36,056 nucleotides of DNA from Candidatus Saccharimonadota bacterium (lineage in GTDB: Bacteria; Patescibacteriota; Saccharimonadia; Saccharimonadales; AQU-01). The notes beneath the pieces were generated by a model. The model was not told the DNA's origin. It did not search any database and was given only the letters and a program-made list of their open reading frames with translations. Position 1 is the first letter of the stretch. Every line of letters begins with the position of its first letter. The position numbers and the translations under genes are program-made. Positions 14,692-36,037 of the stretch are shown here, piece by piece. The stretch covers positions 1 to 36,056 of the forward strand of contig JAHBAU020000021.1 in NCBI GenBank assembly GCA_018499905.2. The letters run 5' to 3'.

Positions 14692-15045
14692 ATGACTCTG
14701 GCTTCTTATAAGGATTTAATAGTTTGGCAGAAATCCATTGAGCTCATTGAGAGGGTGTATGAGATAACGAGTAGCCTGCCAACACAAGAAATGTATGGAT
14801 TAACCTCGCAGATGAGGAGAGCATGTGTGTCAATTGCGTCAAACATTGCTGAGGGTAGCAAGCGCAGTTCAAAAGCCGATTATCGTCATTTTTGCACTAT
14901 TGCTTTGGGCTCTGCAGCAGAACTCGAGACGCAGCTGATTGTCGCACTGCGGCTATTTAAACTAAACGGTGCAGATGAATGTATTGAAGGTGTTACAGAG
15001 ATTCAAAAAATGCTCCATGCATTGACGCGTAAACTCCAAGCTTAA
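14692..15045 (+). CDS. Four-helix-bundle protein of the S23 / rRNA-IVS family
   Basis: A 117-residue protein matching the S23 family (23S rRNA intervening-sequence proteins, also related to the Avd accessory protein of diversity-generating retroelements). The family pattern is complete: YKDLIVWQKSIELIERVY, YGLTSQMRRACVSIASNIAEGSKR, and FCTIALGSAAELETQL. Related proteins form pentameric helical bundles that bind nucleic acid; the cellular role of stand-alone copies is not known. The gene is enclosed by a perfect 24-bp inverted repeat and wedged between lepB and parB, with both neighbours' stop codons in or at the arms. That suggests it arrived as a small mobile cassette. No reverse transcriptase is in the window, so it is not an evident retroelement. 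Confidence 0.92.
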   Translation: MTLASYKDLIVWQKSIELIERVYEITSSLPTQEMYGLTSQMRRACVSIASNIAEGSKRSSKADYRHFCTIALGSAAELETQLIVALRLFKLNGADECIEGVTEIQKMLHALTRKLQA

Positions 15046-15047
15046 AC

Positions 15048-15071
15048 CCTATCAACTACAACCTATAACCT
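15048..15071 (-). repeat. Right arm of 24-bp inverted repeat, overlapping the end of parB
   Basis: Exact reverse complement of 14648-14671. It starts 2 bp after the stop codon of the four-helix-bundle gene and covers the last codons and the TAG stop of parB (15056-15071). Confidence 0.9.
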
Positions 15072-16695: not shown

Positions 16696-16775
16696 GATGC
16701 TGCTTATTTACCCTCTTATGCCTGTTTATTTTACTCTCATTTCACTTAATAAAAGCATACCACGTGTTTGTTCGT

Positions 16776-16781
16776 TATAAT
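16776..16781 (+). promoter_or_regulatory. -10 box of the 16792-17415 gene, near-leaderless
   Basis: A perfect TATAAT lies 10 nt before the ATG at 16792. No good -35 hexamer is visible at 16-18 bp. Confidence 0.55.
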
Positions 16782-16791
16782 ATATGACAGA

Positions 16792-17415
16792 ATGCGTAGT
16801 CTTGAGAATATTAAAGAGTTGCTAACCCCGTCGTTTGCCAGTGCAACGACCGTGATTGGCGCAACCGTAGTTTTTCTAGGTGGAGCAACCTTTATCACTA
16901 GCAGCGATAGTGGCGCGTTGTATGAGTGGCTATTTGGTGAAACTAGCTCAGCTAGTCAAATTGAGACCGCCAAAAGTGCCCTGCAAACCGTCAATGACAC
17001 CGTGCTTGGCAACAGCACACTGAATCAGCTGTTATTCTTTGTTTTATGGGCCCTTATTGGCTTGGCAGTCTATGTCATTATCGCCGGCATCAACCGTGAA
17101 GTCAGCAGCGTCAGCGAAGATCTCGAGGATATGGTCGGCAAGAACACCCACACCGATGAGATCCGGCATGAAATCATCACCAAAGCAATTTTACGCATGG
17201 TATTCATCGCCTGTTGGGGTATATACGCCGTTTTCTCGGTTCGTATCTATCTGCCGTTTAGTTTCTTATGCGCCCGCATTGGCGGCACCCAGCTCAGCGA
17301 AATATCTGGCTGGCTATTTATTCTGGCTGGCACATTAACGATGCTGTTATCACTGCATATGCATGTAGTATTTGCTCGTCTCGTCATGCTTAAGACGAGA
17401 TTGTTTGAAAACTAA
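16792..17415 (+). CDS. Four-TM membrane protein, unknown
   Basis: Not recognised; 208 residues from the ATG at 16792 (MRSLENIKELL). An upstream in-frame start at 16768 lies before the -10 box and is rejected. There are four hydrophobic segments: about 18-36 (ATTVIGATVVFLGGATFI), 80-100 (LLFFVLWALIGLAVYVIIAG), 138-160 (VFIACWGIYAVFSVRIYLPF) and 178-196 (GWLFILAGTLTMLLSLHMHV). A polar loop with acidic residues and His (about 103-130) lies between the second and third. It is divergent from parA. The arrangement of a small membrane protein with a cytoplasmic loop gives no functional clue. Confidence 0.75.
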   Translation: MRSLENIKELLTPSFASATTVIGATVVFLGGATFITSSDSGALYEWLFGETSSASQIETAKSALQTVNDTVLGNSTLNQLLFFVLWALIGLAVYVIIAGINREVSSVSEDLEDMVGKNTHTDEIRHEIITKAILRMVFIACWGIYAVFSVRIYLPFSFLCARIGGTQLSEISGWLFILAGTLTMLLSLHMHVVFARLVMLKTRLFEN

Positions 17416-17502
17416 ATACGGCTCCTCTGGCCAATTGGCAAAAACTTCAGTATGTTAAACTAAGCATGTAATTCTAGTGGGTGGGAATTTGGAGCATTTG
17501 CT

Positions 17503-17724
17503 ATAAAGTCCCACATCCATTATCAGCACAATTATGGTTCACGGCGAAAACGTAATACGGGCATCTTTAGCCTTATCATCGTTGCTGTTCTGAGTTTTAG
17601 TGCCGGCCAGCAACTAAAATCAGCCTATGCTTATCAGATTGATACCCTCACCAGAAGACTAGTTGACAGCACTCCGGTCGCTAGGCCAAAGCCAGACATC
17701 AATAAAGCAATGTTGAGCAACTAA
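17503..17724 (+). CDS. Possible small membrane protein lacking a standard start codon
   Basis: An open frame from 17464 to the TAA at 17722-17724 encodes a credible small membrane protein. It has a basic N-terminus (HNYGSRRKRNTG), a hydrophobic helix (IFSLIIVAVLSFSAG) and a polar tail ending RPKPDINKAMLSN. No ATG, GTG or TTG occurs in frame before the helix. The best placed initiator is an ATA at 17503 with GGAG 8 nt upstream (73 residues). It may use this rare start, be a decayed or frameshifted gene, or not be a gene. It fills most of the otherwise empty 17416-17784 gap. Confidence 0.4.
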   Translation: MKSHIHYQHNYGSRRKRNTGIFSLIIVAVLSFSAGQQLKSAYAYQIDTLTRRLVDSTPVARPKPDINKAMLSN

Positions 17725-17784
17725 TGACAGCTTTTAGAGAAAAGCTTCACTACTTTAATCATTTGCCAAGCTGATACACTAAAG

Positions 17785-18171
17785 TTACGACGAGCTAAGA
17801 TTGCCGACGACTTCAAGCTGATCAAGCATTTTGCGGCCATGTGGTGATTTGTCGATTACGTTCGACATGTCTGCGCCACAGCGGGCCTGACCTTCACTGG
17901 TGGTATGCTCACCATTATCCCAATTCATACTTTCTGAAAGATCATACACCTTTCCATCAACCGCTACCCAGCAGTTTCGACCACTCTTACCATCTGCTTC
18001 GAGCAACTGTGCAACACTGATTACTTCAGATCCACTCGTAGCTTTTTTTGATTTTGGTTGACTGGTAGTCACCACCAACGCACCCATTAGCAGTACAACT
18101 ACTGTAATACCTATAGTCCATTTAATGATGAAGTAGGTGGCAACACCTTTTAGAAACGTTTTTGGTTCCAT
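17785..18171 (-). CDS. Membrane-anchored cytochrome b5-like domain protein
   Basis: The ATG at 18171 (MEPKTFLKGV) is preferred. A TATTAT box lies 9 nt upstream, and the longer frame to 18240 would overlap the preceding gene. The 128-residue product has one transmembrane helix at about 12-36 and a C-terminal cytochrome b5-like (heme/steroid-binding) domain at about 50-125: VAQLLEADGKSGRNCWVAVDGKVYDLSESMNW, then GEH and SPHGRKMLDQLEVVG. H89 and H111 are 22 residues apart, close to the spacing of the two axial heme ligands in cytochrome b5. A Cys pair (C67, C98) could form a disulfide. Heme binding is inferred only. It follows the Cys/His-rich gene on the same strand. Confidence 0.8.
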   Translation of the reverse strand: MEPKTFLKGVATYFIIKWTIGITVVVLLMGALVVTTSQPKSKKATSGSEVISVAQLLEADGKSGRNCWVAVDGKVYDLSESMNWDNGEHTTSEGQARCGADMSNVIDKSPHGRKMLDQLEVVGNLSSS

Positions 18172-18180
18172 GCTGTCTAA

Positions 18181-18186
18181 ATAATA
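18181..18186 (-). promoter_or_regulatory. -10 box of the cytochrome b5-like gene
   Basis: The minus strand reads TATTAT 9 nt before the chosen ATG at 18171; no strong -35 is present. It also supports the shorter start over the one at 18240. Confidence 0.45.
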
Positions 18187-18200
18187 CCATCCTTTAAGAT

Positions 18201-19304
18201 TTAAAAAGTCTTGTAGTATTCCGTTCCAGTTGTTTGACATAGCTGTCGTAGCGGTTCACTACCGAGCGAGTCGCACAATACGTTTGCTTGATCCATGTTA
18301 TGAAAATATGAAATGAAATCTTTGACAGCCCCAACGATGCAGTTACTCTGTGCGTCATAAGTCGTGCCCTTAAGGCAAAGCTCTTTTGTTTTGCTCGGAT
18401 CACTGGTGGTGCTGCCTGAAGCATCCCGTCCTATGCTTTGATAACAAGTTGCCACGAATTGTTGCTCGATGGCTTCGCATTGCATAAACACTGTCTCAAA
18501 ATTGTATTCAGCCAGTTTTAGAGCATACGAAGTTTGCATGAGATAACATTGGTTCTTAAATGTATTCCCCACAGCTGTGCAGGGATACATCGGCTGATCT
18601 TTGAACAAATATTTTGTACCATGGTCTTCATTGTCTTCACTCATGATGTTTTCCATAAAGACCCCACCGTAGCACGACTCTTGCTCCCACCACTCCGACA
18701 TTTTTTGGCAGAGGCTTAGTGATTCAAATAATTCAATGTCGGTCAGACCCATCACTCCATGCCCCAAGCCATGGACACAATTAAAATGATAGAAACTGTA
18801 GGGCTGCTCCTGTTTTAACTTGTCGCATATGGTCGCAATATTCTGGAAAACATAATCTTTGCCAAGGCTTGCTGTCATGGCTTCCATAACCCCGTGGTAG
18901 TACCCCGACCAACAGAAGTTATCACCATAGCGATACGATTCGCCAATGTCGTTATATTTCGTCGCGGCCGCCCGACCGATGCGGTGCGCGAACTGATGGC
19001 ATTGACTTACAACATAGGGTTCCTTGGCGTAGGCATCTTTGAGATCGGCAAAGGCTACGGCCGGCGAATCCTCTCGCGTCAGGGTACGCAATCTGTTATC
19101 CCAACATTTGAAGTCGGTTGATTGGGCCGTCCCCAAGCAAATTGGTGCTGTACTTGCGACTGTGCTGGGGCGCAAAATAGTATGTCGCACAATATATACA
19201 TTGGCGGCAACAAAGGCTGCCGTAATCACTAGTAACATCAAGGGCTTTTTAGCAACTCGTGCTAGGTAGGTTTTGGGCTGCACTGCCCTTTTCTTGATCT
19301 TCAT
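18201..19304 (-). CDS. Secreted or anchored Cys/His-rich protein, unknown family
   Basis: The start at 19304 (MKIKKRAVQP) is chosen because a perfect TATAAT lies 10 nt upstream of it; the frame is open 33 nt further, but that start would precede or overlap the box. The product is 367 residues: a basic start, one hydrophobic helix at about 20-38, then a large extracytoplasmic region with 16 cysteines. Repeated Cys/His motifs include CHQFAHRIGRAA, FCWSGYYHGVMEA, NCVHGLGHGVMG and SCYGGVFMEN. I believe I have seen similar motif sets in uncharacterised CPR and archaeal proteins, but I cannot name a family. The paired cysteines suggest disulfides, and the conserved His a metal or heme site. The next gene is cytochrome-b5-like, which hints at a shared redox or heme role. 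Confidence 0.75.
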   Translation of the reverse strand: MKIKKRAVQPKTYLARVAKKPLMLLVITAAFVAANVYIVRHTILRPSTVASTAPICLGTAQSTDFKCWDNRLRTLTREDSPAVAFADLKDAYAKEPYVVSQCHQFAHRIGRAAATKYNDIGESYRYGDNFCWSGYYHGVMEAMTASLGKDYVFQNIATICDKLKQEQPYSFYHFNCVHGLGHGVMGLTDIELFESLSLCQKMSEWWEQESCYGGVFMENIMSEDNEDHGTKYLFKDQPMYPCTAVGNTFKNQCYLMQTSYALKLAEYNFETVFMQCEAIEQQFVATCYQSIGRDASGSTTSDPSKTKELCLKGTTYDAQSNCIVGAVKDFISYFHNMDQANVLCDSLGSEPLRQLCQTTGTEYYKTF

Positions 19305-19314
19305 ACTACCAGCT

Positions 19315-19320
19315 ATTATA
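19315..19320 (-). promoter_or_regulatory. -10 box of the Cys/His-rich gene, near-leaderless
   Basis: The minus strand carries a perfect TATAAT 10 nt before the ATG at 19304. The -35 region is poor. Confidence 0.55.
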
Positions 19321-19435
19321 TAACCCCCGAAAAGCAAAACCTACATTTTTGGCTAAGCCTGACGATTAAAAATTGCTGTTTTCTGCTTCGCGACGCATTA
19401 TAAGCATTAGTACTATGCGGCTAGCTTGATAGTCA

Positions 19436-21310
19436 CTAGCCTAGGTGTGGGACTAGGGAGCTTGGTGGTGCCGATGAAGTTGGTGCAGGTGCGATCGTCG
19501 ACGGAGCCGTGGTTGTAGTTGTTGGACTTGGTGGTGTTGTAGTCGGGATCGTGGTTGGTGGTGGCGTTGTGGTGGGCGGAACAGTTGTTGGCACTGGCGG
19601 CGTGTCTGTCGCCTGCTCAACGAGGGTTATCGTACCATTGGCAATGATAATTTCGTATGTCGTCCAATCTGCCGGCGCATTATCGATACCTTCACCTACG
19701 ACCACGGTTTCGCCTTCGGGAGTGACAAATTGCATGCCGGTCAGATAATCGGGATACTCTGGCGTGGTGCCAACAGAAGTAACTTCGCCAGTGGTTGCGC
19801 CAAATAAAGTGTCTTGGGTCAAGCCGGCGGCTGCCCGGATTGTCACCCGATGTTCTGAACCGGCTGGGAAGAACTGAACAGTACCCATGTCTAGCTGGTC
19901 ACCACCGACGTTTTGTCCGTAAAGTATGGTGTTGCCTTGTTCGTCGGCATGAAATACTGGTTGATAGACATTGCCATATATAACACCTTCGCTATTAACC
20001 AATCGATCATTCGTGACTGGCAGCACAGCGCGCAGATAGGGTTTTTCGACTGAAGTATCTTGTAGCTGCTCACGGGCAGAAGCGGTGATCGCAGCAATTT
20101 CTTCAGGGTAGAGTTCATCCAGGTTGGTATTCTCAATTGTAACTAGGCGCATGTCTAGGCTGTCGGTCGGAGGCTCAACGAAGACAATTGTTCGAATGTC
20201 CGGACGGTCCAGATTAACCCGTAGATTTGTTTGTAGAATTTGAGTTAAACCAAATTGCCCTTCCTGGTGACTAACTGGCTCTCCTCTAGATATGGTACCG
20301 CCGTTTTTGCCGTTAGGCGTGAGCAGCTGACCACCACTGTTGCCAGGCCCAACAAGAGTACCGTCAGCGCTAGTGGAAGCGACATAGACATCGAGTTCGC
20401 GCGGACTTCCGTCACCTAGTGGCTGGGAACCGATGTAGATCAGGGAATTTTCTTGTCGTGAATCAGTTGAGGTTGCCTGTTCAGCAGGAAAGCCGGAAAC
20501 ATAAGCTACGTCTCCCTGCTCTGGTCGCTGATCGGCCAACTGGTCGGCATAGGCATCAAGGACTGTTTGCGGATCAACGCCTTCTGCAACAGCGAGGGCG
20601 ACATCTTCGCCACCTTCTGGTATAAGAAATCCAGCAATGGTAGCGACTGTCTCCATATCACCGACCGTTTCGCCTTGCTGCATAGTCAATGCACCGTTGT
20701 GCTCAACAACTGCTCCATCTTCTGCAGACAGTATTTCGGATGACAACTGGTGAGCTGACAGCGCACCGCCAACAATCTGGTCTTCGACTGTTAACAGCCC
20801 GCCGCTGCTCGCTCTTCCATCTATATTGAGATAGAAGGTGCGTTGTGCGAGCCTCTCGCTGACATTGCCAGGAATTGGCTCGAACCCAGGAAGCTCAAAA
20901 AGCTGCTTCACTTCGGTGGTTGTAGTGGTTTCGGGTGCAGGCGTGGTTGCCACATCAGTGGTGGCTGGGGCTTCTGTTGGCGCCGGTGCGGCAATTGTTG
21001 TTGGCGCAGCCGTGGTGGTCGATGTTGAGCTAGTGGTAGATGGAGGCCGAGTAGTAGTCGTAGACGTTGTCGTCGTTGCCTCAGTGGTGGTCACCACAAC
21101 CGGTGCCGTCATCTCGGGTATAGTTTGTGGTGGCATGGTGCCATCTGCCGCCTGGGCGGCCGGGTCGGCATCAGTATCACCGCTACGCAGACCTTCGTAA
21201 AGCCCGCCGGCAACTACTGTCGTGGACACCAGTGCCGCCAACGGGACTATCGCCCGTCGCAGTCGTGACGGCTGATGTCCTGGTACCGGTGGTTGTGGGG
21301 CTCTATCCAT
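19436..21310 (-). CDS. Anchored mucin-like protein with divergent trypsin-like domain
   Basis: A 624-residue extracytoplasmic protein. A basic cytoplasmic start is followed by one hydrophobic helix at about 19-38 (no obvious cleavage site) and a Thr/Ser/Pro-rich stalk at about 60-135. A globular region of about 420 residues follows, and a second Thr/Pro-rich tail runs from about 560 to the end. In the globular part a trypsin-like triad can be traced: H187 in GGALSAHQL (compare LTAAHC), D236 in EDVALAV (compare DIALL) and S325 in GPGNSGGQLL (compare GDSGGPL). A serine protease is therefore likely but not proven. The stalks, with runs such as TTTSTTTT, may be glycosylated. It neighbours the giant surface protein, a possible substrate. 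Confidence 0.6.
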   Translation of the reverse strand: MDRAPQPPVPGHQPSRLRRAIVPLAALVSTTVVAGGLYEGLRSGDTDADPAAQAADGTMPPQTIPEMTAPVVVTTTEATTTTSTTTTRPPSTTSSTSTTTAAPTTIAAPAPTEAPATTDVATTPAPETTTTTEVKQLFELPGFEPIPGNVSERLAQRTFYLNIDGRASSGGLLTVEDQIVGGALSAHQLSSEILSAEDGAVVEHNGALTMQQGETVGDMETVATIAGFLIPEGGEDVALAVAEGVDPQTVLDAYADQLADQRPEQGDVAYVSGFPAEQATSTDSRQENSLIYIGSQPLGDGSPRELDVYVASTSADGTLVGPGNSGGQLLTPNGKNGGTISRGEPVSHQEGQFGLTQILQTNLRVNLDRPDIRTIVFVEPPTDSLDMRLVTIENTNLDELYPEEIAAITASAREQLQDTSVEKPYLRAVLPVTNDRLVNSEGVIYGNVYQPVFHADEQGNTILYGQNVGGDQLDMGTVQFFPAGSEHRVTIRAAAGLTQDTLFGATTGEVTSVGTTPEYPDYLTGMQFVTPEGETVVVGEGIDNAPADWTTYEIIIANGTITLVEQATDTPPVPTTVPPTTTPPPTTIPTTTPPSPTTTTTAPSTIAPAPTSSAPPSSLVPHLG

Positions 21311-21389
21311 AAAATAATGGTCGTTTTCTAAATGATTAATGCTGATTGTTTTTGTTTTATGCCCGCTTGTAGTTGGGCACCTTATATAT

Positions 21390-21417
21390 AATCTATCATA
21401 ATTAGTAGAAATGTCAA
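21390..21417 (-). promoter_or_regulatory. Promoter of the mucin-like protease gene
   Basis: The minus strand has a perfect -35 TTGACA (21412-21417), a 16-bp spacer and -10 TAGATT (21390-21395). This leaves a leader of roughly 75 nt, unlike most genes here. A small hairpin (GCCC with GGGC, 21361-21378 region) lies in that leader. Confidence 0.55.
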
Positions 21418-21461
21418 TGACTAATCTCGTTTTTCAAACCCGTGACCGTTCCTAGATGGTG

Positions 21462-21467
21462 TATGAT
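21462..21467 (+). promoter_or_regulatory. -10 box of the 21479-21982 gene
   Basis: TATGAT lies 11 nt before the ATG at 21479, again pointing to a very short leader. The -35 is not convincing. Confidence 0.4.
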
Positions 21468-21478
21468 ATGAAGTATCT

Positions 21479-21982
21479 ATGGGGGTGTCAAAAAGACGAA
21501 TATTCATACTTGCACCGTTGGGGTTGGTGCTGATAACTACGGGTTTTGCTGTGGCTTGGTTTGTGTTGCAGCCACGGGACAAAACGAGTTCGTCCAACAC
21601 GCAGGAAACTAAAACCTTCCAGGTGCTGGCCGCTCAGACAAGTCTTCCCTTGTATGCGACAAAAAATACGACCGCTTATAAATTTAAGGATGCGGTTGTA
21701 GCTGATGAGACGATCGTAATTGCCACCTATGAGACAAACAAAGGTGACATTACCGTTACCAATCAACCAAAGCCGACTGTCGACCCTTTTCTTACTATTG
21801 AGCCAGTCGATAAATTCGCAACTAGTATCGGGGATGCTCGACTCTATCCTGATGATCAACAAGAACCGTACATTGTGGTGTATGCCCCGCTTACCTGGCT
21901 AGTTATTCGTAGCAGTTCAGAACAAATCGGCTCAAATGATCTCAAAGCTTTTGTGCTGAGCCTTGCAGCAACAACTAATTAG
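21479..21982 (+). CDS. Small membrane-anchored extracytoplasmic protein, unknown
   Basis: Not recognised; 167 residues. A basic start (MGVSKRRI) leads into one hydrophobic helix at about 8-30 (IFILAPLGLVLITTGFAVAWFVL), then a polar linker and an extracytoplasmic alpha/beta domain of about 120 residues. The domain has no cysteine. It could be an uncleaved signal-anchor protein. It is divergent from the mucin-like protease and convergent with the giant gene, whose stop codon overlaps its own (4-bp overlap), so there is no terminator between them. Confidence 0.65.
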   Translation: MGVSKRRIFILAPLGLVLITTGFAVAWFVLQPRDKTSSSNTQETKTFQVLAAQTSLPLYATKNTTAYKFKDAVVADETIVIATYETNKGDITVTNQPKPTVDPFLTIEPVDKFATSIGDARLYPDDQQEPYIVVYAPLTWLVIRSSSEQIGSNDLKAFVLSLAATTN

Positions 21983-24900
21983 CGCTTGGTGCTCAGTGGT
22001 CGGACCAGGGAGTAGTAGTCAACTTCAACGCTTCTGGAAGTGGTGCCGGCTGATTTTTCGATGTGAATATTTGGCTGTGTGGCCTGTGTGCCAGATGGGA
22101 TGTTGGTCGTTGAACAGCCGACGAATGTATCGTTGATATAGAAGTCTACTTGGCTACCGGCCGAGTTGATGACAGCCTTTAGTCGGTACCAGGTTGCTGC
22201 AGAAACAGCTGTGGCTGAGCCGCCAGCGCTACAGTTAGCAGCGGTGTTTGTAACTTTGGTGCGAGTTCCACCGGCTGCAGTAACTAAGGTCCAGTTTGTT
22301 GAGGTGTTACGATCATATTCGAAGTACACTCCATCTGTACCCTGCCCGGCCATGCCATCTGATAAGCCTGCCCGGAAGTCAAATTCTTCACCGGCTGTCG
22401 ACAGGGTTGGGACTCGAACCGAAGTCTCAATGGTTGTATTGCCGCCAACTTGCCAAGCGTTCAATTGACCCATGCGCAACAATGTACAGCCCGTTGCCGA
22501 GGTGCTGGTTGATAGATCCATGACACCTGGACGATCAGGTGTGTCGGAGTTAGCATAGGTCAAGTTCGAGAAAGTACAGACCGTATTATCATTAGTCCAG
22601 CCGTGAGTACCAATAGTGTTGGCGTTGCCAACATTGGTGCTAAAGAAGTCCTCGTGCAGAATAATTGCTGCTGAGATACTGGATGGGTCAGAACAGTTGG
22701 TCCAGATGCCATTCTCATAGCAGCGGAACTTGCCCAGGTTGCTGTTGTAGTACATGGCACCGTTAACACCGGTGGGATCACCAGATGTGTTCTTTTCGTC
22801 GAGGACGAGTAACGCACCCGTCGCATCAGCAGTGGTATCGCCGATGTAAATTCGATCATTGGTGCTATCAGCGACCAAAAGTGTCACGGTGGTGCTGCTG
22901 CCATCGTAGACTTCCAGCTGCGTAGCCGAGTTGCCAGTGGCGCGAGAAACCAGAACGCCCGTACTGGTAATTGAGAATACTTCTGAGCCACCAGCCGTGT
23001 TATCAGAGTCAACGAAGATATTGTAGTTCGATGTACTGCCACCATTTTGGTTAGAGACATACAGGCCGTACTTGTTGGTTACACCAGTCGTAGCACCATT
23101 GTCATAGTAAGAACCATACAAGTTGGTGATGGTGTTGGTGCCAGATCGATCAACTCGAGAGTAGAGGCCATAAGCGTTTGTGATTGTTGTGGTGTTGCCA
23201 GATATTGTAGGCAGATTGATCATGCCGTATAGGTTAGAAAGTGTACCGCCGCTGACCGAGCCAACTGCAAAGCCAGCCTGATTTTGGATACCATACTGGT
23301 TTGTGTTGGATGTGGAGGTAATGGTCGGGGAGTTGTTGAGCGAAACATTACTGGTGATAGCGCCGTCCAGCAAGACAGAACCGTCAAGGTTAACTGTTCC
23401 ATCAACTTCAAGCTGACCCTCTACAAACAGATCATCATCACCAGTTGCATTTCCAGGGGTTGCTGTATCGCCAACCCGAACATAACTGGAGGCATTTATG
23501 GTTAGGTTACTGTCGCCTGTGATGGCATCGCCGTTGACGGCTATGGTTCCACTCAAAGTGAGGTTCCCAGTTGTGCCTGCGTCGGCAAGTGTTAACAAGG
23601 TGTTGGTGCCATCGGTGATGGTGTAGGTGGTGCCGTCGGTTGCCTGGATGACGGTTGAGGTATCGGCAAAGAACAGGTTAGCGTCCCAGCCTGAGCCAAT
23701 AGTCAAACCATTTTCAACAGCTGCTGTACCTGTTATGCCCTGGATCATGATGCCAGTAAACGTATCGTCGGACGAGCCAGTAATTGGGTCGAAGTCTACA
23801 TTTATAGCCGATAGGTCGGTACTGGTACCATTGCCGCCTTCGATATTTATATATAGCCCGTCAACGTTGTCAGTAGTAATACCGCTACCGGCGGTGGCAC
23901 TAACCGATATCAGATCAACAGTTGAGGCAGCTGAAGGGGTTATCTGGAAGTTAGTATCAGCATCGGTGCTTAATACTATGTCGCCAGAACCAGCCGCAGT
24001 AACGGTTAGTGCTTCGTTGCCAGTTGTAGTGATGTCAGTGTTTAGGCCAGTGAACTGGACACTGTTGGTGCTTGTAGCGGTAAGGATTAGGTTGTTCGTC
24101 CTGGAATTTATTGATATGCCGTTAACGCTGTCCCAACTATCTCCACACAAGGCAGGCGATTGGTTACCGTCACCTTGTCCAAAATTAATGCATCCAGCAA
24201 GATTTATGTAGCCGTTTACCGCAAGTCCAGCTCGAGTTCCGGCAAAATATGAAGCATCGTTGGAAGTGTAAGAATAGGCTGCGGGCACACTACCTGTCAT
24301 TAGTTGAGCACCCCAAGCAATGATAGTCGATGAATGATTCGAAATAACGATTGTTGGCTTGTAGTCAGTGATAGCGCCAGTGAAGTTCTGGGTAACGTGG
24401 TATCGTTTCCAAGTAGTCGTGGCTGTAAAGCTGCGAGCGGTTCCAGTAGTTGGCGTGCCGGCTACAGAGTCAATGCGCAGGTCGAATGGTTGCGTACCTG
24501 ATGCTGTCTTGACCCAAACACTGAAGGTTGCTGGTCCGGCAGTAATACCGCTGACCGATGCTGTTTGAACAAGGGTGTGCGTGCCTGATCCGCTCGAAGC
24601 GAGGCTATCAGCCGTTGTTGAACCTGCTCCATATGGGTCTGCCGTAGTATCTGCCGTTACCGTTACGTTTGTTGCTGTCCAAGCCACCGCATCTAAGTCT
24701 TCACTGTTGTAGACTAGGTTTCCAATCTTGCCGAAACCGCCCCATGCGCTGCTAAGGCCATTTTCAAAATCAGAAAATGCCGTGTAGTTTATCGAACCGT
24801 AAGAACTGTCGACTGTCATAAGGTTAGTTCCTGCTGAATTTTGAATCTGGAAGGCGCTAACTGAGTCTGTTTGAGTCCTGAAAGTTGTGGCCCCACCATC

Positions 24901-27900
24901 GGCGATAGTCAATACATCAGCTGCTGTTGCAGTGCTATCACGTACTCTGAGCAAGTTGCCTGTTCCAGATGACTGAACATCTAGGCCGCCAACTGCACCG
25001 GTTGCCTGTTGGTTTACATTGAGGACGTAGGCTGAAGTGCTGCCGCTGGATGATGGGTTAGTAATATTTATCGACCCATCGGTGCTGCTAAGAGTGATGG
25101 TGGCGTCAGAGCCGTCAGCGTCAGCATCGTAAGATTGCTGCAAGGTGGTGCTGTTACCACCACAGGCGGCGTCAGTTTGGTTACAAAGCACCTTAACCGT
25201 ACCGTTCTCGATGACATTCACTCTATTGGTGGTGGTGTTATAGAACAAGCCGCCGTTGAGTGCTGAGAGGTTGGTAGTCGGAACTGCCGTGGCGCCGTCC
25301 AACTGCAGAATGGTGGTGTTGGTATCTGTTCCGGTGCTATTACCAATCTTGATCAGGTTACCGCCAGAGCCGCTTCGAGCGGCAGTGTCAGCTGTTAGCA
25401 AGGTGTCGGCAGCAGTAGCGTTCTGGATTCGGAAAGCAGTCGCAGAGTTAGTCTCGTTGGTAAAGGTTGCCCCACCGCCGTTGGCGATAGTAAAGACTGC
25501 TGTGCTGTTGTCTTGAGCAACGAAGATGCTATCGGATGAAGAACTGTTCGTAACAGTCAATCGAGCAGCTGAGGTAGTAGTCGTGCCAATGGCGATACGG
25601 TCGTTGCTTAGGTCACCATACAGACTTTCGCCGATATTTAAGAAATTACTCGTGTTGCTGGCAGGCGCGCTAACATTGTAACCAATTAGTATGTTATCGC
25701 TCCCTGATATCAATGCATTAGCTGCATTCGAGCCAAATACGAGGTTATGATTGCCTGTCATATTACTTGTTAGCGAGCCAATACCAATGGCAATGTTATC
25801 AGTACCTGTCAAGTTAGTCGATAATGCTCCAGAACCAATGGCAACGTTGCCGCTACCTGACGAATTTCTGTTAAGCGTCAGGTATCCCAACGCAACGTTA
25901 TCGGAACCAATAGTATTCGTCGAAAGACTATAATCACCGATTGCAATATTATTAAATGCTGTAGCAGCCTCGGCGAACAGGTTAGCATTTACCCCTATAC
26001 CGATGTTAGAAGAACCGAACGATCCACCTCTAATTTGTGTACCAACCGCACCAGTTTGGTCCTGCAAATCAATAACTGAGTTACTGGCTGTCATGGCCTT
26101 AACAGATACTGCCGAAATAACACCAGAGAACCCGGTACCAGTAAATGTCAGTGCATTTGTGTTAGCGGTAGTAGCCACTATGGTTATGGCCGTGCCATTA
26201 GTCGCGATCCCTGCGGTAGCTGCCCCACCAAAGCTCACCGTCAGGGAGCCGGCTGAATAGCTGGAGATAGTAAATTGCACCTGATATGTCACGCCAGAGG
26301 CAATGGTCACGTTGCTGCTGGTAGCGACAACTGTACCAGAAGCACTGCTGCCGGTTACGCTGCTTGCTCCACCCGACCAGCCACTGCCAACGGTCCAGTA
26401 TGTTGCATTATTAAAGGCATTCGAAGTAATTAGTTCGCTTCCGGTTACTCCATCAGAGTTGATGCCCCTTAGGACGAGCTTGCTGTTTGTTGTGTCGACC
26501 GTCAGTACTGGAGTTGAGCCAGTGTTCCTCTGAACTTGCAGAGCTGTGGTTGAGTCCGTGGCGTTCTTGATAGTCAATGAGTCGGTTGCGGTCACATAAC
26601 TGATGGCTGCTTCGTCGGTAGTACTGGTTCCAAGGTGGATAGTCTCACCGCCCAAGAACAAGTTGGCCCAGCGGAGGCTGTCTGAACCTAAGTTGTAAGT
26701 GTCGTTAGTACTTGGCAAGATATCAGAGTTAACTCGACCAGTAAAGGTAACGGTATCGCTGGTGGCATCACCAAGGGTGGCGTTGCCGTTAACGCTTACA
26801 TCCCCGGCAAAAGTGGCAGCCTGAGCACTCGTGATAGTTAAGGCTGTCGTGTTGTTGGTTTCCAATATTAAGGAGTTTGCGTCATTGGTACCTAATGTAG
26901 CTGTGCCACCCCAGGTGTTGCCACCTTGGATGAAGGCCGATATACCAGCGACCGATGAGCCAGAAGTCACCAAGGCTAATGTTCCGGTGGTGTCAGGTAT
27001 AGTGATGGTTCGGTCGGCAGTCGGGTTGGTAATAGTAAAGGTGGTTTCGTTAGCGTCTGCGCTGGAGCCTTCAAAAACGAGGGCGTTGGTGCCTTGGACA
27101 ACTGCCGCGGTGATGTCGAACAAGCCACTAGATTGGTTGTAGCCAGTTATGTTGGACAACGCACCAGCACTATCCAATCGGCTTGTGCCGCCAGTTTGTA
27201 GATCGCCGTTAATGTTTAATCGAATACCACCGGAGTTGTAGATGGTGACTAGCTCAGTTGTGCTGGTGTTCTGGAACTGTAGGAAGCCATCATTAATGCC
27301 GACAATCGCTGATATGTCATCGAAGAATAGGTTGTTATCCCAGCCGCCGCCAATCATGATGCCATTCTCCCAGACGCCGCCATTGGCTGACGCAAGATCA
27401 CCAACGTAAATTCCGTACAATGAGTCAGCATCACCTGTTGCAGCACTGGTGGCATTTATCTCCAGGCCGGATATTTCATCAGCGTTGGCATCATTACCTA
27501 GAGTTAAGCCTATAACTTGAGCTGCTCCGTTGTCTGTAATCGTGCCAGTTACCTGTAGGTTAGAGTCGTTATCTGCCGAGATAACCACGTCCCCTGTTCC
27601 GTTTGGTGCGACTGTCAGGGTTTCGTTAGCACCGGTAGTTATATCAGTAGTCACACCCGAGAAAGTTAACTGTGACGATGCGCCAGATAGAGTTAATCCT
27701 GCGTTGCCAGTAACCAGGCCAGCAAATGTAGCTTGCTGGGTACTATTGATCGTCAAAGCTGCCGTATTGTTAGTCTCTAGAACTAGGGAGTTGGCATCAT
27801 TGGTGCCAAGAGTTGCCGTACCTGCCCAAGTATTACCATCCTGGACGAAGGCCGAGATTCCAGCCACCGAAGAACCAGAAGTAACCAGTGAGACAGTACC

Positions 27901-30900
27901 AGTTGCATCTGGGAAAGTGATGGTTCTATCGGCAGTTGGGTTGGTGATGGCAAAGGTAGTTTCGTTGGCGTCAGCACTAGAACCCTCGAAAACTAGAGCG
28001 TTAGTGCCCTGTAGCGTAGCATTGACAGTTAATAGATCAGTGTTGGCGTCGCCGATTATAGAATCGCCATAGTTGGTAACCGTACCGTTACCCGTAGCAT
28101 CAACGTTGAAGACGGCAGATGCTGCGCTAGTTATAACTCTAATTGCCTCAGCAGCATCAGATCGAACTTGGACTGAAATATCAGAACCGCCGCCGCTTAA
28201 GTAATCATAAATCTGCACGTATGATGACGCTGCTTGCTCAATATAGAAGCGGCCGTAAGCATTAACTTCGTCTTGAAGCTTAAGAATGCCGGTACCGTTA
28301 GCATCGATAGTCAAGTCTTGGTTACTTGCCGTAGTTATATCCGTCGTCACACCCGAGAAAGTTAACTGTGATGATGCACCAGATAGGGTTAATCCAGCGT
28401 TGCCGGTCAGTAGTGCGCTGAAGGTCTTAGCACCACCAAAGGTTTGGCTGTTAGCATCTACCACACCAGCGGTTGTACCGGTAGCTACAGCAATTGCGAT
28501 TGAAATGTCATCAGGGTTAGTGGCAGTGTTGAGTGTCCAGGTAGTGCCAGCGACTGATCCAGAAGAGGTGGTGTCTAGGAAGTTAGCACCGCTGGCAGCC
28601 GCACCATTGACCGTAACTGCGTCACCGGATCCGGCACAGTTAGCAGCTGTAGCCAAACAGAAGGTGTCGTTAGCAGCCAATGTTGGGAAGCCAACACTAA
28701 AGCTACCAGTAGCTTGTGTCCCAGTATTGATGGTGACGGTGTTATTGTTGGTGTCCTCATTAAGGATTAAGGAACCGGCTTGAGTGGTGGTACCGATAGT
28801 GACTGAAGCGCCTTGGACAGCAGCAGTGGAAGCAAAGGTTGCTGCCTGAGAGCTGTTAATAGTCAATGCGGCAGTGTTGTTAGTCTCTAGTACCAGTGAG
28901 TTTGCATCATTTGTACCAAGTGTAGCGGTACCAGCCCAAGTGTTACCACCCTGGACAAAGGCCGATATACCAGCGACTGAAGAACCAGAAGTGATGAGAG
29001 AAACAGTACCGGTGGTGTCTGGGAATGTGATGGTTCTATCGGCAGTTGGGTTGGTGATGGCAAAGGTGGTTTCGTTAGCGTCGGCTGAAGAGCCCTCGAA
29101 GACGAGGGCGTTAGTGCCTTGGATAGTGGCGTTGACAGTAAGAAGGTCGGCAGCGGCGTCACCGAGGGCAACGTTACCATTGAGAGTTGTGCCGCCATCA
29201 ACATCAAAGTTCTGGACAACCTCTACTCCTTCGCTACCTGAATTGGCATGAACGATCAGGATGTCCAAGCTCGTTCCAGTTTGCTCAATCTTGAATGCTT
29301 CGGCATTGGTAGAGGTAATAAAGGTCTGTGGCCCAGTAATGGTTACACCGTCTGTTCCATCATTCACACTGAAGTCGCTGTTAGCATCAACAATAATTGC
29401 CACGTCTCCCGTGCCATTTGGTGAAATAGTGAGTGTTTCATTAGCGCCAGTAGTGATGTCAGTAGTCACACCCGAGAAAGTTAACTGTGATGATGCGCCA
29501 GAAAGAGTTAACCCAGCATTACCCGTTAGGAGTGCGCTAAAGGTCTTAGCGCCACCAAAGGTTTGACTGTTGGCATCTACCACACCAGCGGTTGTACCGG
29601 TGGCGACAGCTATAGCAACGGTGATGTCATCTGGAGTAGAGCCAGTGTTGATACTCCAGGTAGTACCGGCTACTGAGCTTGTTGATGAGGTGTCAAGGAA
29701 GTTGGCGCCGGTAGCTGCTGTGGAGTTGACAGTGACGGCGTCACCAGAGCCTGGGCAGTTAGCAGCTGTGGCCAGACAGAAAGTGTCGTTGGCGGCAAGG
29801 TTAGCTGGGAATGAAACGGCGAAGCTTCCGGTTGCTTGAGTACCGGTGTTAATAGTAACGGTGTTGTTGTTGGTGTCTTCGTTGAGGACTATTGAACCAG
29901 CCTGGGTGGTGGTGCCGACGGTCAGTGTGGCGCCTTGGACAGCCAGGGTGCCAGTAAAGTTAGCCGCGCTGGAGATAGTTTGACCGTTGATAAGGCCTGA
30001 GGTGATAGTGTCAGCGCCGATGTCGATAGCACCAAAGCCGGAAGTGATTGAACCGCTGTTCAATGCGCCAGTGCCAGTGATGGCAGTGCTGACGGCATCG
30101 TTGGTGTCAACGAGTGCCGTGTCACGACCGTTCAACAGGTTAAATTCTGTGGCGTCGACGGTTGTACCATTTATGACGAAGGTGGTTGAGCTGTTGCCCG
30201 TAACTGTTAATGCGCCGGTGCTGTTACCGATGGAAAGCGTGTTGCCAGCGGTGGTAGCAATAGTGCTGTTGCCGGTGATTGAAGCACCGCCAGCGGTGAC
30301 CGTAAGACCCGTACCAGCCGTAATGGTGGTCGAGGCTGCGAAAGCACCGGTGACGTTCGTATTATCTTGTAGTTCGATGGTGCCAACCGAGTTCAATACA
30401 ATGTTGCCAGAGGTCGTGGTCGTCAGGTTCAGGTTGCCGCTGGTAGCATTCAAAGCAGTATTGATGTTGGTGCTTGAGAGATTAGATAGCTGTTGGTTAG
30501 CACAACCCGAGCAGGTGCCGTTGCCGCCGGCGACACCACCAACCATGCGCCAGAGGGAGCTGGCCGCATCGTACACGAGGGTGATGGCTGCGCCAGGAGC
30601 AAGCGAAACGCTCGCACTGAGGCCGGTTGAAATACGGTTAGCGGCCGATGAGGCAGCATCATTGTCGGTAATGGTGACGCTCAGAGCGGCATCGGTGTTA
30701 ACCAATGTCAGAATTTGACCGTCGCGGCCAGCCACAATACCGGTGATGGTTTGGGCAGCACCTGAAGTATCTAACAGGTAAAGTGATGCGGTCGAGATGG
30801 CAACGTCGTTGGCGCTTCCGGCGGTAGTGTAAGTAGTGCCTCGGCGAGTAGCCAATGAAACAGTTGCAGCAACATCGGTGTTTCCTTGCAATAGTACCGC

Positions 30901-33900
30901 GCCCGTACCAGAGGTGAAGGTGCTGGCCCCGGTCAGTGAAGTGTTTTGGCCAAGGACAATGGAGGTGGCTGTAGCTTGGCCGATGTTAAGTGCGCCAGCT
31001 GATACTCGATCCAAGCTAGATGTCAGAACAGAGGTAGTTCCCTGCACCGTTCCAGTAGTTGTGATGTTATCGGCGCCAGTGTCTATTGCACCAAAGCCTG
31101 AGGTAATTGAACCAGTGTTCAAAGCACCAGTGCCGGTGATGGCGGTATTAACAGCGTCGTTAGTGTCGACCAAGGCGTTATCACGGCCATTGAGTAAGTT
31201 GAACTCGGTAGCGTCTACTGTTGTGCCGTTGATCACGAAGGTGGTTGAACTATCACCAGTGACTGTTAATGCACCAGTGCTGTTGCCGATGGAAAGCGTG
31301 TTGCCAGCGGTGGTGGCGATGGTGGAATTCCCGGTGATTGAAGCACCGCCAGCGGTAACGGTCAGGCCCGTGCCGGCAGTGATGGTGGTGGAAGCAGCTA
31401 AGGCACCGGTGACGTTGGTAGCGTCCTGGAGTTCAATCGTACCAGCCGAGTTAAGGACAATGTTGCCAGAGGTGGTTGTCGTCAGATTCAGGTTGCCGCT
31501 CGTTGCGTTAAGTGCGGTGTTAATGTTGGTGCTGCTGAGGTTAGATAGCTGTTGGTTGGCGCATGTTGGGCAGGTGCCTGCTCCACCGGCTACGCCACCA
31601 ACCATGCGCCACAGCGAAGCATTGGAATCATAGACAAGGGTGATGGCAGCGCCTGGGGCTAGGTTGACACTCGCGCCGGTGCCGGTGGAGATGCGGTTGG
31701 CAGCGCTTGATGCAGCATCATTATCTGTAAAAGTAACGCCGAGGGCGGCATCAGTGTTGACCAAGGTGAGGATCTGTCCATCGCGACCGGCCACAATACC
31801 GGTAATCGTCTGAGCGGCGCCGGAAGTATCTAAAAGATACAGTGAGGCCGTTGAGATGGCAACATCGTTGGCGCTACCGGCAGTTGTGTAAGTCGTACCG
31901 CGGCGGGTGGCTAGAGAAACAGTTGCAGCCACATCGGTGTTACCTTGCATCAGGACAGCGCCGGTACCGGAGGTGAAGGTGGCTGTACCAGTGAGTGAGG
32001 TGTTCTGACCAAGAACAATGCTGGTTGCTGTGGAAGCACCGATGTTCAACGCACCAGCTGATACCCGATCAAGGCTTGAAGTCAGGACAGAGGTGGTACC
32101 CTGGACTGTGCCGGTGGTGGTGATATTGTCAGCACCAGTGTCAATTGAACCAAAGCCAGAGGTGATGGAACCAGTGTTCAAGGCGCCGGTGCCGGTGATG
32201 GCGGTGTTAACGGCGTCGTTCGTATCAACTAGGGCATTGTCACGACCATTCAACAGGTTGAACTCTGTAGCATCAACGGTCGTTCCGTTTATCACGAAGG
32301 TAGTTGAGCTGTTGCCAGTAACGGTCAGCGCGCCAGTGCTGTTGCCGAGTGACAAGGTGTTGCCAGCGGTAGTAGCGATGGTTGAGTTCCCTGCTATGCT
32401 GGCGCCGCCAGCGGTGACCGTCAGGCCAGTACCTGCTGTAATGGTAGTGGAAGCTGCGAAGGCGCCAGTGACGTTGGTGTTATCTTGGAGTTCGATTGTT
32501 CCTGCGGAGTTAAGGACGATATTGCCAGAGGTGGTAGTGGTCAGGTTCAAGTTACCACTGGTAGCGTTCAAAGCGGTGTTGATGTTGGTGCTTGAAAGGT
32601 TGGACAAAGCTGTGTTGGCACAACCGGCACATGTCCCTGCTCCCCCGGCCACACCGCCAACCATGCGCCACAAGCTAGTAGCGGCGTCATAGACCAGGGT
32701 TATAGCCGCACCAGGTGCCAGAGTGACAGGGGCGCCAAGACCGGTTGAGATGCGGTTAGCGGCCGATGAGGCAGCATCGTTGTCGTTAATCGTGACTGTC
32801 AAAGCAGCGTCAATGTTTACCAGAGTGAGCTGCTGGCCATCACGACCAGCGACGATACCAGTGATAGTCTGAGCTGCACCGGAAGTATCTAATAAGTAGA
32901 GAGAAGCAGTTGAGATAGCCACATCATTGGCACTACCAGCGGTAGTGTAGGTGGTACCACGACGGGTTGCGAACGATACGGTAGCAGCGATATCGGTGTT
33001 ACCCTGCAAGAGTACGGTGCCGGTGCCTGAGGTGAAGGTGCTGGCGCCAGTGAGCGAGGTGTTCTGGCCCAGGACTATTGAGGTGGCGGTGGTCTGACCG
33101 ATGTTAAGTGCGCCGCCTGTAACTCGATCTATAGATGAAGTTAGTACGGCAGTTGTTCCCTGCAAGGTACCAGTAGTTGTGATGTTGTCGGCACCAGTGT
33201 CAATTGAACCAAAGCCAGAGGTGATTGAACCAGCGTTCAGAGCGCCGGTACCAGTGATGGCGGTGGCGACTGCATCATTCGTGTCAACCAAAGCGGCGTC
33301 TTTGCCGTCTAGGCGGTCAAGCTCGGTTGATGAGATAGTCGCGCCGCTAGTCACGATATCGTTAGAACCGATGGCCAAAGCAGTTCCGATTTCTGCATCA
33401 GATACATCCAAAGCAGTAGTGATGGCACCAGTAGAGGTTTGGCGGATCAAGATGCCGGTTGCCGTCGTGCCGGTGCTGGTGGCTTCGAAGGTAGCCAAGG
33501 TACCGGTACCGTCGTTCTGGACCTGGAAGGCGTCAACGCCGCCGGTGTTCAGCTGCTCAATACGGAAGGCGTAGCCGGAATCGGTACCAGCTGATGCGGG
33601 GTTACGGATAATGATTGAGTCGTCAGCGCTACTCAAAGCAATGATGGCGTTAGAACCGTCAACATCGTTATCGTAGGTTGTTTGAAGGGTTGGGGCTGAA
33701 CCGCCGCCATCGTCGTCGCCACAGATAACGTTACCGGATGCGTCGGTCGTCAACACGCCGCCGTTGGCGTTCGAGCTACAGTTAAAGCCGGTCAGCGTGA
33801 TGCTGCCGCCTGCCGTTAAGATGATGTCGTCGACAGCGTTCAGGGTAACATCGCTGCCAGCGCCAGTGCTGGCAATGGTAATAGACGCAGCTGCTGTCAG

Positions 33901-36037
33901 GTTGCCAATGTTGACAAGATTGCCACTGGCATCGACACGGTTAGTGCCGGCTGTCTGCAAAGCAGTGGTGGCATTGACGTTGCCGCCTTGAATGGTGCCG
34001 CTGGTGGTGATGTTGTCAGCGCCGGTATCAATTGCACCAAACCCTGAAGTGATTGAACCGCTGTTCAAAGCGCCCGTGCCGGTGATAGCCGTGGTCACGG
34101 CGTCGTTGACATCAACAAGTGCCGCATCTCGGCCATCAAGCAGACCAATCTCGGCGCTCGAGATTGTTGTGCCACCGATATCAAAGATGTTGGTGTAGCC
34201 ACCGCCGCCGCTGTTTTGGATGGAGATAGCCACTGGGATAGCCAGGTTGGTATCGGCGTTATCAATATAAAGGCCAGCGTCCAAACCATTGGTATTGGCC
34301 GAGTCAGCTTGCTGGACAAAGAAACCGCGAGTCGTACCAGCCGAGGCGCTTGGCGTCGCGACCAGTGATACAACGTTGACTGATCCGGCTAGATCAGAGG
34401 TCAGGCTGACGTTTTCGGTACCAGCCAGGACGATATCGATATCGCTGTTGAAGGTTGCGGTATTGTTGGCGGTGATGGTGCCAGTAAAGACGCTGTTGTC
34501 CTGAACGTCCAAGATGTCGGCACCGTCGATGATAATGTCATTGCCTGCTCCGGTGCTGCTCAAGGTCAAGGTCGTTGAGCCGATCAGGCTTGGGGTGGTG
34601 ACACTGGTTGAGAAGGTTGGGTTGTTGACGGTAGCAATCACAAATGAGCCATTGGCACCGTTATCGGTAAAGCCGATATTGGTGCCGGCGCTTAGGTTGC
34701 GCTCATTACTTAAGGTACCGTCAAGTGAGACGACCAAATATTGCGCAGTGTTGGGAGCACCACCGCCGCCGCCACCGACACAGTTGCCGCTGGTGGTACA
34801 CAGATCATAGGTGCCTGCGCCTAACGCAGGGATGTTGAGGGTCACATCAGCCGTTGGATCGGCAAACGCCAGAACAGTGGTGTTGCCGGAACCGTCTTCG
34901 GCAATGATCTGGCTAGTTTGATTGCCCTGCAGGGTAAACGAAGCGCCTACCCTACCTAGGGTCAGTGATGAAGCATTCGAAGCACCGAGCGAGATGGTGC
35001 CTGTCGTGCCGGTTGCCGTGCCAGCGTCAATGCTCACGTTACCAGAATCGCTGGTTGCACCAGTAGCGTTACCGCTGCGAATGGTCAGGTTCTGACTGTC
35101 GGTCGAGCCAGCTGAAGTGTTGGCGGTGTTCAAGACGCCAGCAGTCGAGCTGGTGCCCAAGACGACATCGCCGCCCTGAAGTGTAAAGTCACCGCTGATT
35201 GAAACATCGGTGCCATCATCGGTAATAGTTGAATCACCAATTGTTTGTGCGCCAGTAAACTTGGCAACTCGGTTAGCGTTGCCGCCGGCCGTCGTAACGC
35301 CACCGCCGGTGCCAGCACAGTTACCACTAGTCAAACAGATGCTAACCGTACCAGCGCCCGGGTCAGGTAAGGTATAGACCGTATCCTGACCGAGGGCCGC
35401 AACCTGTAAAGTGCCGATGCTGGAAGAACCGTCGGACAGGACAAGCGTGCCGGCTTGCGAGGTCGTGCCGGCAGTGATTGCCCCGCCCTGAACGGTCAGA
35501 TCATTGGTAGCTGTGATATCTCCACCGCTGGCGATGGTCAGTTTGGTGGAGCCGTTGGTCTGGAAAACGATAGAGTTAGCGCCGGTGGCCGCGATGGTCA
35601 GGCCAGCGTTCTGCAAGATTGGTGTGGTGACACTGGTTGTAAATGACGGATTGTTGACGGTGTTTAAGTCAGCACAAGAACCGCCGGTTCCTAATGTAAT
35701 TGAGGTGCCGCCGCCCGTCAGGTTACCTGTACCACTTGGGCAAGTTAAGGATACATTACCCTGCACCGACGTGTTGGCAGCTGAGCCGTAGATAACAGCG
35801 ATATCGTTGGCGTTAACCGTAATGCCGTTGCCGGCACCGATGTCGAGAGTGACGTTGCCGCTGGCGCCACCGCCCGTCAAGCCGCCACCGGCTGTAACAT
35901 CGGTAATCACCCCGGCGACTTCGCTCTCATCAATGCCGCCGTCCAGAACGGTCACTTCGGAAGCGCTCAAGGTCGTGCCCATAATGTCAAAGATAGTGGT
36001 GTAGCCGCCACCGCCGCTGTTTTGGATGGAGATAGCG
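21979..36037 (-). CDS. Giant repetitive surface or fibre protein, 5' end missing
   Basis: An unbroken frame of about 4,686 codons runs to the contig edge. The ATG at 36054 lies in adapter sequence and is not real. The product is rich in Thr, Ser, Ala, Gly, Asn and Asp and poor in Lys, as in beta-rich fibres. Visible modules, from the N-terminal side, are: AISIQNSGGGGYT repeats, three 353-residue tandem repeats (about residues 918-1977), and diverged modules with ANETTFAITNPTADRTITFPD, a phrase like those in phage tail fibres. Then come a jelly-roll-like domain, a YadA-head-like N-x-A-I-G tract, a second jelly-roll with AWGAQLMTGS, and a ConA-like C-terminal domain. No C-terminal anchor is seen; the signal or anchor was presumably in the missing part. 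An adhesin or attachment fibre is inferred. Confidence 0.85.
21982..22680 (-). other. C-terminal concanavalin A-like domain of the giant protein
   Basis: The last 230 or so residues differ from the repeats: HEDFFSTNVGNANTIGTHGW, SVRVPTLSTAGEEFDFRAGL, GVYFEYDRNTSTNWTLV, TWYRLKAVINSAGSQVDFYIND and a final strand VEVDYYSLVRPL. The order of strands and the TWYRLK...VDFYINDT pattern are those of LamG/ConA-like beta sandwiches, which often bind glycans. It is preceded by GAMYYNSNLGKFRCYENG, a phrase typical of phage tail-fibre junctions. Confidence 0.6.
24255..24735 (-). other. Jelly-roll carbohydrate-binding-like module in the giant protein
   Basis: The encoded segment NLVYNSEDLDAVAW ... FSVWVKTASG ... 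TWKRYHVTQNFTG ... IIAWGAQLMTGSVPAAYSYT follows the pattern of CBM4/9-like jelly-rolls found in phage tail and fibre proteins, where the last strand commonly reads WGAQLE-x-GS followed by a Tyr. Confidence 0.55.
25661..26015 (-). repeat. YadA-head-like repeat tract in the giant protein
   Basis: About six repeats of roughly 17 residues, each centred on N-[IV]-[AL]-[ILVF]-G: NIAIGDYSL, NVALGYLTL, NVAIGSGAL, NIAIGIGSL, NLVFGSNAA, NILIGYN. This is the signature of the left-handed parallel beta-roll in the heads of trimeric autotransporter adhesins such as YadA and in some phage fibres. It suggests the giant protein trimerises, at least here. Confidence 0.7.
26080..26445 (-). other. Second jelly-roll-like module in the giant protein
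   Basis: The segment ELITSNAFNNATYWTVGSGW ... VTYQVQFTISSYSAGSLTVSFGG ... LTFTGTGFSGVISAVSVK has the strand order of a carbohydrate-binding-like jelly-roll and lies just N-terminal to the YadA-like tract. The assignment is by pattern only. Confidence 0.4.
26930..29130 (-). repeat. Three diverged fibre modules in the giant protein
   Basis: A module reading VFEGSSADANETTFAITNP then ADRTITFPD, GTVSL, SGSSVAGISAFVQ, GGNTWAGTATLGTNDAN and LVLETNNTAALTI occurs three times. The ADRT segment begins near 29041, 27931 and 27016, so spacing is 1,110 bp and 915 bp. Unlike the 1,059-bp array, these copies vary in length, by loss or exchange of the FSGVTTDI and FCLATAANC submodules. Confidence 0.8.
30122..31180 (-). 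repeat. 1,059-bp tandem repeat, copy 1
   Basis: Unit of exactly 1,059 bp (353 residues), measured between matching anchors at FNLLNGRD. It contains GSITSGFGAID, TATSIVLGQNTSLTG, the segment ATRRGTTYTTAGSANDV, YLLDTSGAAQTITGIVAGRD, a CSGC pair and TTFVINGTTVDATEFNLL. A partial further unit continues to about 29990. Confidence 0.9.
31181..32239 (-). repeat. 1,059-bp tandem repeat, copy 2
   Basis: Same length as its neighbours; a second anchor (the segment before the Cys pair, 30491 and 31550) gives the same 1,059-bp offset. The Cys pair here is CPTC. Synonymous differences from copy 1 are frequent, so these are not assembly duplicates. Confidence 0.9.
32240..33298 (-). repeat. 1,059-bp tandem repeat, copy 3
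   Basis: The most N-terminal full unit. Its outer boundary is marked by the diverged anchor ELDRLDGKDAALVD in place of EFNLLNGRDNALVD. The Cys pair is CAGC. The next segment towards the N-terminus is unrelated (ISSTE preceded by ITTALDVSDAEIGTALAIG). Confidence 0.85.
34181..34230 (-). repeat. Copy of the contig-end sequence
   Basis: This 50-bp segment, encoding AISIQNSGGGGYTNIFD, is nearly identical to 35987-36036, the last genomic bases of the contig. The offset is 1,806 bp (602 residues), so a further long repeat period probably begins at the contig break. Confidence 0.85.
35987..36036 (-). repeat. Contig-end repeat copy
   Basis: Near-identical to 34181-34230, with a few base changes in the glycine codons. 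Its position at the very end explains why assembly stopped here. Confidence 0.85.

Follow-up and report, generated by a model that had tools for sequence, protein, structure and literature searches.

Cultured Saccharibacteria are tiny bacteria that live attached to other bacteria, and how epibiotic Patescibacteria recognize and hold their hosts is the question addressed by the fiber family in this report. In TM7x, a thin type IV pilus gives initial tethering to the host, and close-range adhesins have been proposed only (PMC12206443, PMC12815258); type IV pili already explain some of the binding of cultured Saccharibacteria to their hosts (PMC12206443), a point against a fiber as the host-recognition factor. 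In Southlakia epibionticum, envelope proteins that bear lectin-like or FN3 domains proved essential by Tn-seq and were speculated to target host glycans (PMC10633639). Giant attachment proteins as such have already been proposed in other Patescibacteria: Vampirococcus lugosii and S. methylophilicida (Absconditicoccaceae) have giant membrane proteins whose adhesion-type domains include concanavalin A and which have been put forward as host-attachment factors (PMC8080830, PMC13059738), and those of Vampirococcus are 1,400 to 4,200 aa long (PMC8080830). In another phylum, the small-genome symbiont Apilactobacillus kunkeei has the giant extracellular proteins Giant1-5, 3,000 to 8,000 aa long (PMC12863079), which are like the protein described here in size and in the small genome of the bearer.

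The window, that is, the whole stretch of DNA analyzed here, is all of one contig (C2, 36,056 bases) of the genome assembly of a Saccharibacterium, 1.09 Mb in 48 contigs and 91% complete. It encodes a giant protein which, like those of the Absconditicoccaceae, comes from a member of the Patescibacteria, is probably membrane located, and has adhesion-type domains. Descriptions of the Absconditicoccaceae proteins name FN3, integrin, PKD, or WD40 domains, and the ones consulted mention neither the phage-fiber architecture nor the parA/ileS location reported below; in the open-licence literature we found no description of the fiber family or of the slot. The identity of the giant protein as a cell-surface fiber is well supported. 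We consider it probable that the fiber is anchored at its N-terminus, carries a glycan-binding tip, and serves attachment to host cells, with host recognition as its inferred function. The sequenced open reading frame (ORF) would then be the distal part of the fiber, the missing N-terminus most likely being a membrane anchor (a short Pro-rich cytoplasmic tail and one transmembrane [TM] helix) or a signal peptide. The repeats would form a long beta-rich shaft built of modules common to phage tail fibers, and the ConA-fold C-terminus would be displayed as the tip, binding a glycan on another cell and so helping the presumed epibiont attach to its host. If this is true, phage tail modules have been reused as the cell's own attachment organ.

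Extent and missing start of the giant ORF

The ORF lies on the minus strand (21979..36037, at least 4,685 aa), with its stop codon at 21979-21981, and the frame stays open up to the contig end. The probability of 4,685 open codons arising by chance at the given base composition is ~1e-98, and the GC3 of 0.53 is like that of the neighboring genes (0.52 to 0.58); the single frame of more than 14 kb seen in the sequence-only reading that preceded this work is therefore real. Four bases are shared with the convergent gene at 21479-21982 on the plus strand. The last 19 bases of the contig (36038..36056, plus strand) are the Nextera transposase mosaic-end adapter, CTGTCTCTTATACACATCT, so that the end coordinate of 36037 given in the same reading was exact. 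The apparent ATG start (MCIRDS) is an artefact because the start codon sits in the adapter, and the true N-terminus of the giant protein is therefore missing from the assembly. The genome holds 30 copies of the mosaic end, placed and oriented as contig ends would have them. Such untrimmed ends give truncated genes in the assembly false ATG starts (MCIRDS).

The rest of the source genome was searched for the missing N-terminus without success. Contig C20 ends within ileS, of which it has the N-terminus, whereas an ileS C-terminus could not be located in the source genome; this is consistent with a fiber N-terminus that probably sits in the gap between C2 and C20.

Shaft repeats and distal modules

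Five residues (Thr, Gly, Ala, Ser, and Asn) make up 60% of the giant protein. Its 28 cysteines fall into 14 successive pairs with members 3 to 39 residues apart, a pairing that appears to be as in exported proteins. Scans of Pfam, NCBIfam, and PHROG with the whole protein gave nothing useful, and the profile matches reported here come from tiles of the sequence.

Repeat comparison revealed three tandem 353-aa repeats (aa 968-2026; 29977..33153, minus strand), which are pairwise 90 to 91% identical in amino acids and about 75% identical in nucleotides. The dS between them is 1.5 to 1.9 and the dN about 0.09 (dN/dS about 0.05), and the identity at fourfold sites, 0.38 to 0.43, is only slightly higher than the 0.32 expected for independent codons. 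The repeats are old and under purifying selection, since proteins ~90% identical are encoded by synonymously saturated DNA. A duplication introduced by assembly was rejected given the ~75% nucleotide identity and the lack of any exact 60-mer common within the gene. We note that this saturation, leaving no exact 60-mer in common between the ~90% identical tandem repeats (29977-33153), should make them resist recombination. A second repeat family, with units of ~370 aa (aa 2050-3100; 26755..29907, minus strand), is marked by the recurring fiber phrases "ITFPDTTGTVSLITSG". By analogy with phage fibers, we infer that the shaft is a long, beta-rich, trimeric fiber. Phage T4 fibers extend roughly 0.06 to 0.07 nm per residue, and a shaft of this length built to T4 dimensions could reach ~300 nm, on a rough estimate about the size of one Saccharibacteria cell.

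Four distal modules follow the repeats, all read from the minus strand. The first is a jelly-roll-like module, JR1 (aa 3205-3320; 26095..26442), which has homologues both among the relatives and on two viral contigs. Next is a YadA-head-like tract (aa 3349-3480; 25615..26010) built from the 17-residue repeat NxAxG...SLxxNTxG; six landmarks recur in it at exact 17-aa spacing, and it matches PHROG 6002 and 4636 (virion structural protein/tail spike) with E values of 8e-18 and 3e-17. An AlphaFold tile of JR1 and the head tract gave no interpretable model (pLDDT of 45). The third is a jelly-roll/CBM-like module, JR2 (aa 3779-3926; 24277..24720), which weakly matches the phage tail family PHROG 5939 (E of 1.4e-5) and falls short of significance against CBM_6 (E of 0.03); a scan of viral sequences with JR2 gave no match. 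Last comes a conserved linker, LVLDxKNTxxDPTGVxGAMYYNSxxxKFRCYENGxWxxC (aa 4395-4455; 22690..22872), which precedes the variable tips in relatives. When genomes were scanned for the linker, it turned up at 54 loci, the majority in Saccharibacteria and some in other lineages of Patescibacteria.

By these comparisons, shaft modules are common to the giant protein and to phage tail proteins, and the phage-tail-fiber-like phrases noted earlier are borne out by the PHROG and phage matches. The two jelly-roll modules proposed in the sequence-only reading stand in part: JR1 has homologues and JR2 has its phage tail match, but the fold of JR1 was not recovered. The YadA-head-like tract is real, with its period-17 repeats and tail spike matches, although a Pfam search of aa 3301-3480 at E values up to 1 gave no match, and so no YadA model. 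YadA trimeric autotransporter adhesins share with the giant fiber a head-like repeat tract and the logic of a long shaft. Unlike them, the giant protein ends in a ConA-fold domain, with no C-terminal anchor of the YadA type (barrel or anchor family), and its relatives are anchored at the N-terminus; identification as a YadA autotransporter was rejected.

The ConA-fold C-terminus

The proposed receptor-binding tip is an SO2946-like ConA-fold domain (aa 4507-4679; 22018..22536, minus strand). It matches the whole of Pfam PF22237 (model positions 1-163/163, 57.5 bits against a gathering cut-off of 27, E of 2.2e-15). The best PDB match by sequence profile is SO2946 (2a5z; E of 7e-4), which is also first in rank in a Foldseek search with the AlphaFold model of the tip (E of 5e-8; pLDDT mostly 54 to 88). 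Foldseek matches to 2a5z, legume lectins, and beta-glucanases have a probability of 1.00, with modest TM-scores, the best being 0.63 (target length, 2a5z). The ConA-like C-terminus of the sequence-only reading is thus confirmed.

SO_2946 lies beside a tail fiber gene in the Shewanella prophage LambdaSo, and its annotation includes a carbohydrate-binding module (PMC4112983). Its ConA-fold domain is homologous to the tip over the full length and stands at the C-terminus in both proteins; SO2946, however, is a phage protein of 262 residues, whereas in the present case it sits at the end of a protein of at least 4,685 aa whose gene is among bacterial housekeeping genes. Another tip homologue (36% identity) is carried by a Pseudanabaena phage (cyanophage) protein encoded directly downstream of a short-tail-fiber gene. 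ConA folds occur also in enzymes and structural domains, and further fold matches of the tip extend across the ConA superfamily, to lectins, glucanases, alginate lyases, and binding domains of clostridial proteins; this spread reflects the fold of the tip and not its function. The tip is proposed to bind a glycan.

Glucanases and alginate lyases among the matches would also suit a surface enzyme, with the ConA-fold domain degrading host polysaccharide and the shaft acting as a spacer. We regard this as very improbable, in that the best match by both sequence and fold, SO2946, is not a glycosidase and a GH16-type motif, ExDxxE or ExDxE, is absent from the C-terminal 332 aa. Chaperone-assisted assembly of the kind associated with S74 was likewise rejected for the giant protein, which has no Peptidase_S74 at its C-terminus; a related Patescibacteria protein (L117) combines the linker, a ConA-like stretch, and the Peptidase_S74 fiber chaperone.

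Relatives, topology, and chromosomal location

Of 149 genomes from the order of the source organism, 36 match the C-terminal third of the giant protein. Fiber relatives are widespread in Saccharibacteria, the longest complete ones reaching 4,418 aa. Two N-terminal types recur in them: one is a Pro-rich tail with a TM helix, the other a signal peptide with an "NFQGRL" segment after it. Among 53 fiber-like relatives with an intact 5' end, a set chosen by composition that may include a few surface proteins of other kinds, 48 have an N-terminal anchor or signal peptide by simple hydropathy calls rather than trained predictors: 29 have an N-terminal TM helix, 19 have a signal-peptide-like segment with an NFQxR motif, and 5 have neither. 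A C-terminal TM helix is present in only two, both lacking a BLAST match to the fiber set, and none of the sequence-matched relatives has a C-terminal anchor. The topology suggested beforehand, with the N-terminus anchored and the lectin-like tip outward, is thus upheld by complete relatives but not by the present copy, whose 5' end is missing.

In the one pair compared, from a single family (G007 and G040), the first ~950 residues are 51 to 84% identical, against 59 to 83% for housekeeping proteins, while the distal two thirds are mostly 25 to 47% identical and the last 200 aa 40%. A conserved base with a diverged distal part is the pattern that would be expected of an anchored fiber with a diversifying outer part. 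The topology and modularity fit equally well a coat or matrix protein, forming a protective or biofilm layer in which the tip cross-links the cell's own polysaccharide instead of a host receptor. The fibrous surface of Vampirococcus is thought to be due to giant surface proteins (PMC8080830), and the conserved neighbors of the giant gene include a LytR-CpsA-Psr (LCP) gene (12141-13787, minus strand) and a lepB-like signal peptidase gene (13993-14649, plus strand). The distal end, however, is far more divergent than the base in the above pair, and the C-terminal modules vary between genomes, which together suggest outward targets that change; we therefore hold a coat to be unlikely and favor the host-attachment fiber.

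Several other proteins of this general kind were seen. In one relative, L048 (G122, 9592-18999), Kelch beta-propeller repeats stand amid the fiber segments of the shaft (Pfam E of 3e-57) and appear to be another type of interchangeable module. The source genome has a second, complete fiber of 1,284 aa (L225:15724-19575, G000:C30), with a signal peptide and an NFQGK segment, its neighbors being small secreted proteins and two exported proteins of larger size that have a hydrophobic segment at the C-terminus. A third giant protein of the same genome, about 2,057 aa (L011:18390-20000 and L012:1-4560, G000:C32), has an N-terminal TM helix, beta-propeller-like WxWNG repeats, a Laminin_G_3 match, and an FN3-like C-terminus.

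The neighbors of the giant ORF in the window are housekeeping genes: frr, tsf, rpsB, prfA, prmC, htrA, LCP, lepB, parB, and parA (LCP named from Pfam and the remainder from reading the sequences). The genes parB (15056-15934) and parA (15931-16695), both on the minus strand, form the left border of the fiber slot. In 61 genomes (60 chosen by a ParB match and available flank, plus the source genome), 30 have a fiber-like gene beside parA; in 9 of these it is clearly bounded by ileS on the other side, and in the other 21 the region or contig stops before that point. ileS has no preceding fiber in 21 genomes, and neither was seen in 10. As rpsB is in the same block as the slot and so is no independent control, its far flank was used: a fiber-like gene is present there in 0 of 20 regions, compared to 30 of 61 slots (Fisher p of 2.5e-5, which overstates independence because the genomes share ancestry). 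Fourteen of the 20 control genomes have a slot fiber, G079 being a fifteenth. The fiber slot between parA and ileS is conserved across families, although about half of the sampled genomes have no fiber in it and it is thus not universal in the order. Within genus g16, one genome (G043) has a fiber in the slot and another (G015) has ileS directly.

The giant fiber has in common with phage tail fibers and spikes the modules of PHROG 4636, 6002, and 5939, the linker, and the tip, as would a tail fiber gene of an integrated or degraded phage. Nevertheless, the window has no recognizable genes for capsid, terminase, portal, or tail, no PHROG structural matches stand beside the giant ORF, its size is far above that typical of phage fibers, its GC3 is native, the parA/ileS location is conserved across families, and relatives, in contrast to virion fibers, bear a signal peptide or a TM anchor. 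A phage gene is accordingly the least probable of the explanations considered, and a resident prophage, which the sequence-only reading had named beforehand as the finding that would count against it, was rejected on the housekeeping neighbors, the lack of phage structural genes, and the conserved slot.

The slot-type fiber is a strong candidate for the means by which Saccharibacteria grip their hosts, and because the family can be recognized by sequence and has a fixed locus, candidate genes for host attachment can be listed across the whole order, together with a chromosomal address. More tentatively, and as somewhat less likely than not, we suggest that Saccharibacteria may keep a dedicated parA-ileS adhesin slot loaded with interchangeable giant fibers made of phage tail-fiber parts, the distal end of the occupant helping to set the host; in family f35 the occupants could be unrelated C-anchored Ig-like adhesins. 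The parA-ileS region of that family (L186, L187, and L189, from G112, G093, and G035) can hold C-anchored Ig-like/beta-helix surface proteins instead of fibers.

A small S23/Avd-like four-helix protein is encoded at 14692-15045 of the window and matches the PHROG family for the Avd of diversity-generating retroelements (DGR) with an E value of 2e-9. A search of the 91% complete source genome for RVT_1 (reverse transcriptase) gave no match, and the giant protein was rejected as a DGR target for that reason. The region between parA and the fiber (17785-21982) encodes a cytochrome b5-like protein with an N-terminal TM helix, two large unannotated proteins, one of them Thr/Pro-rich and secreted-looking, and a small membrane protein without a Pfam match.
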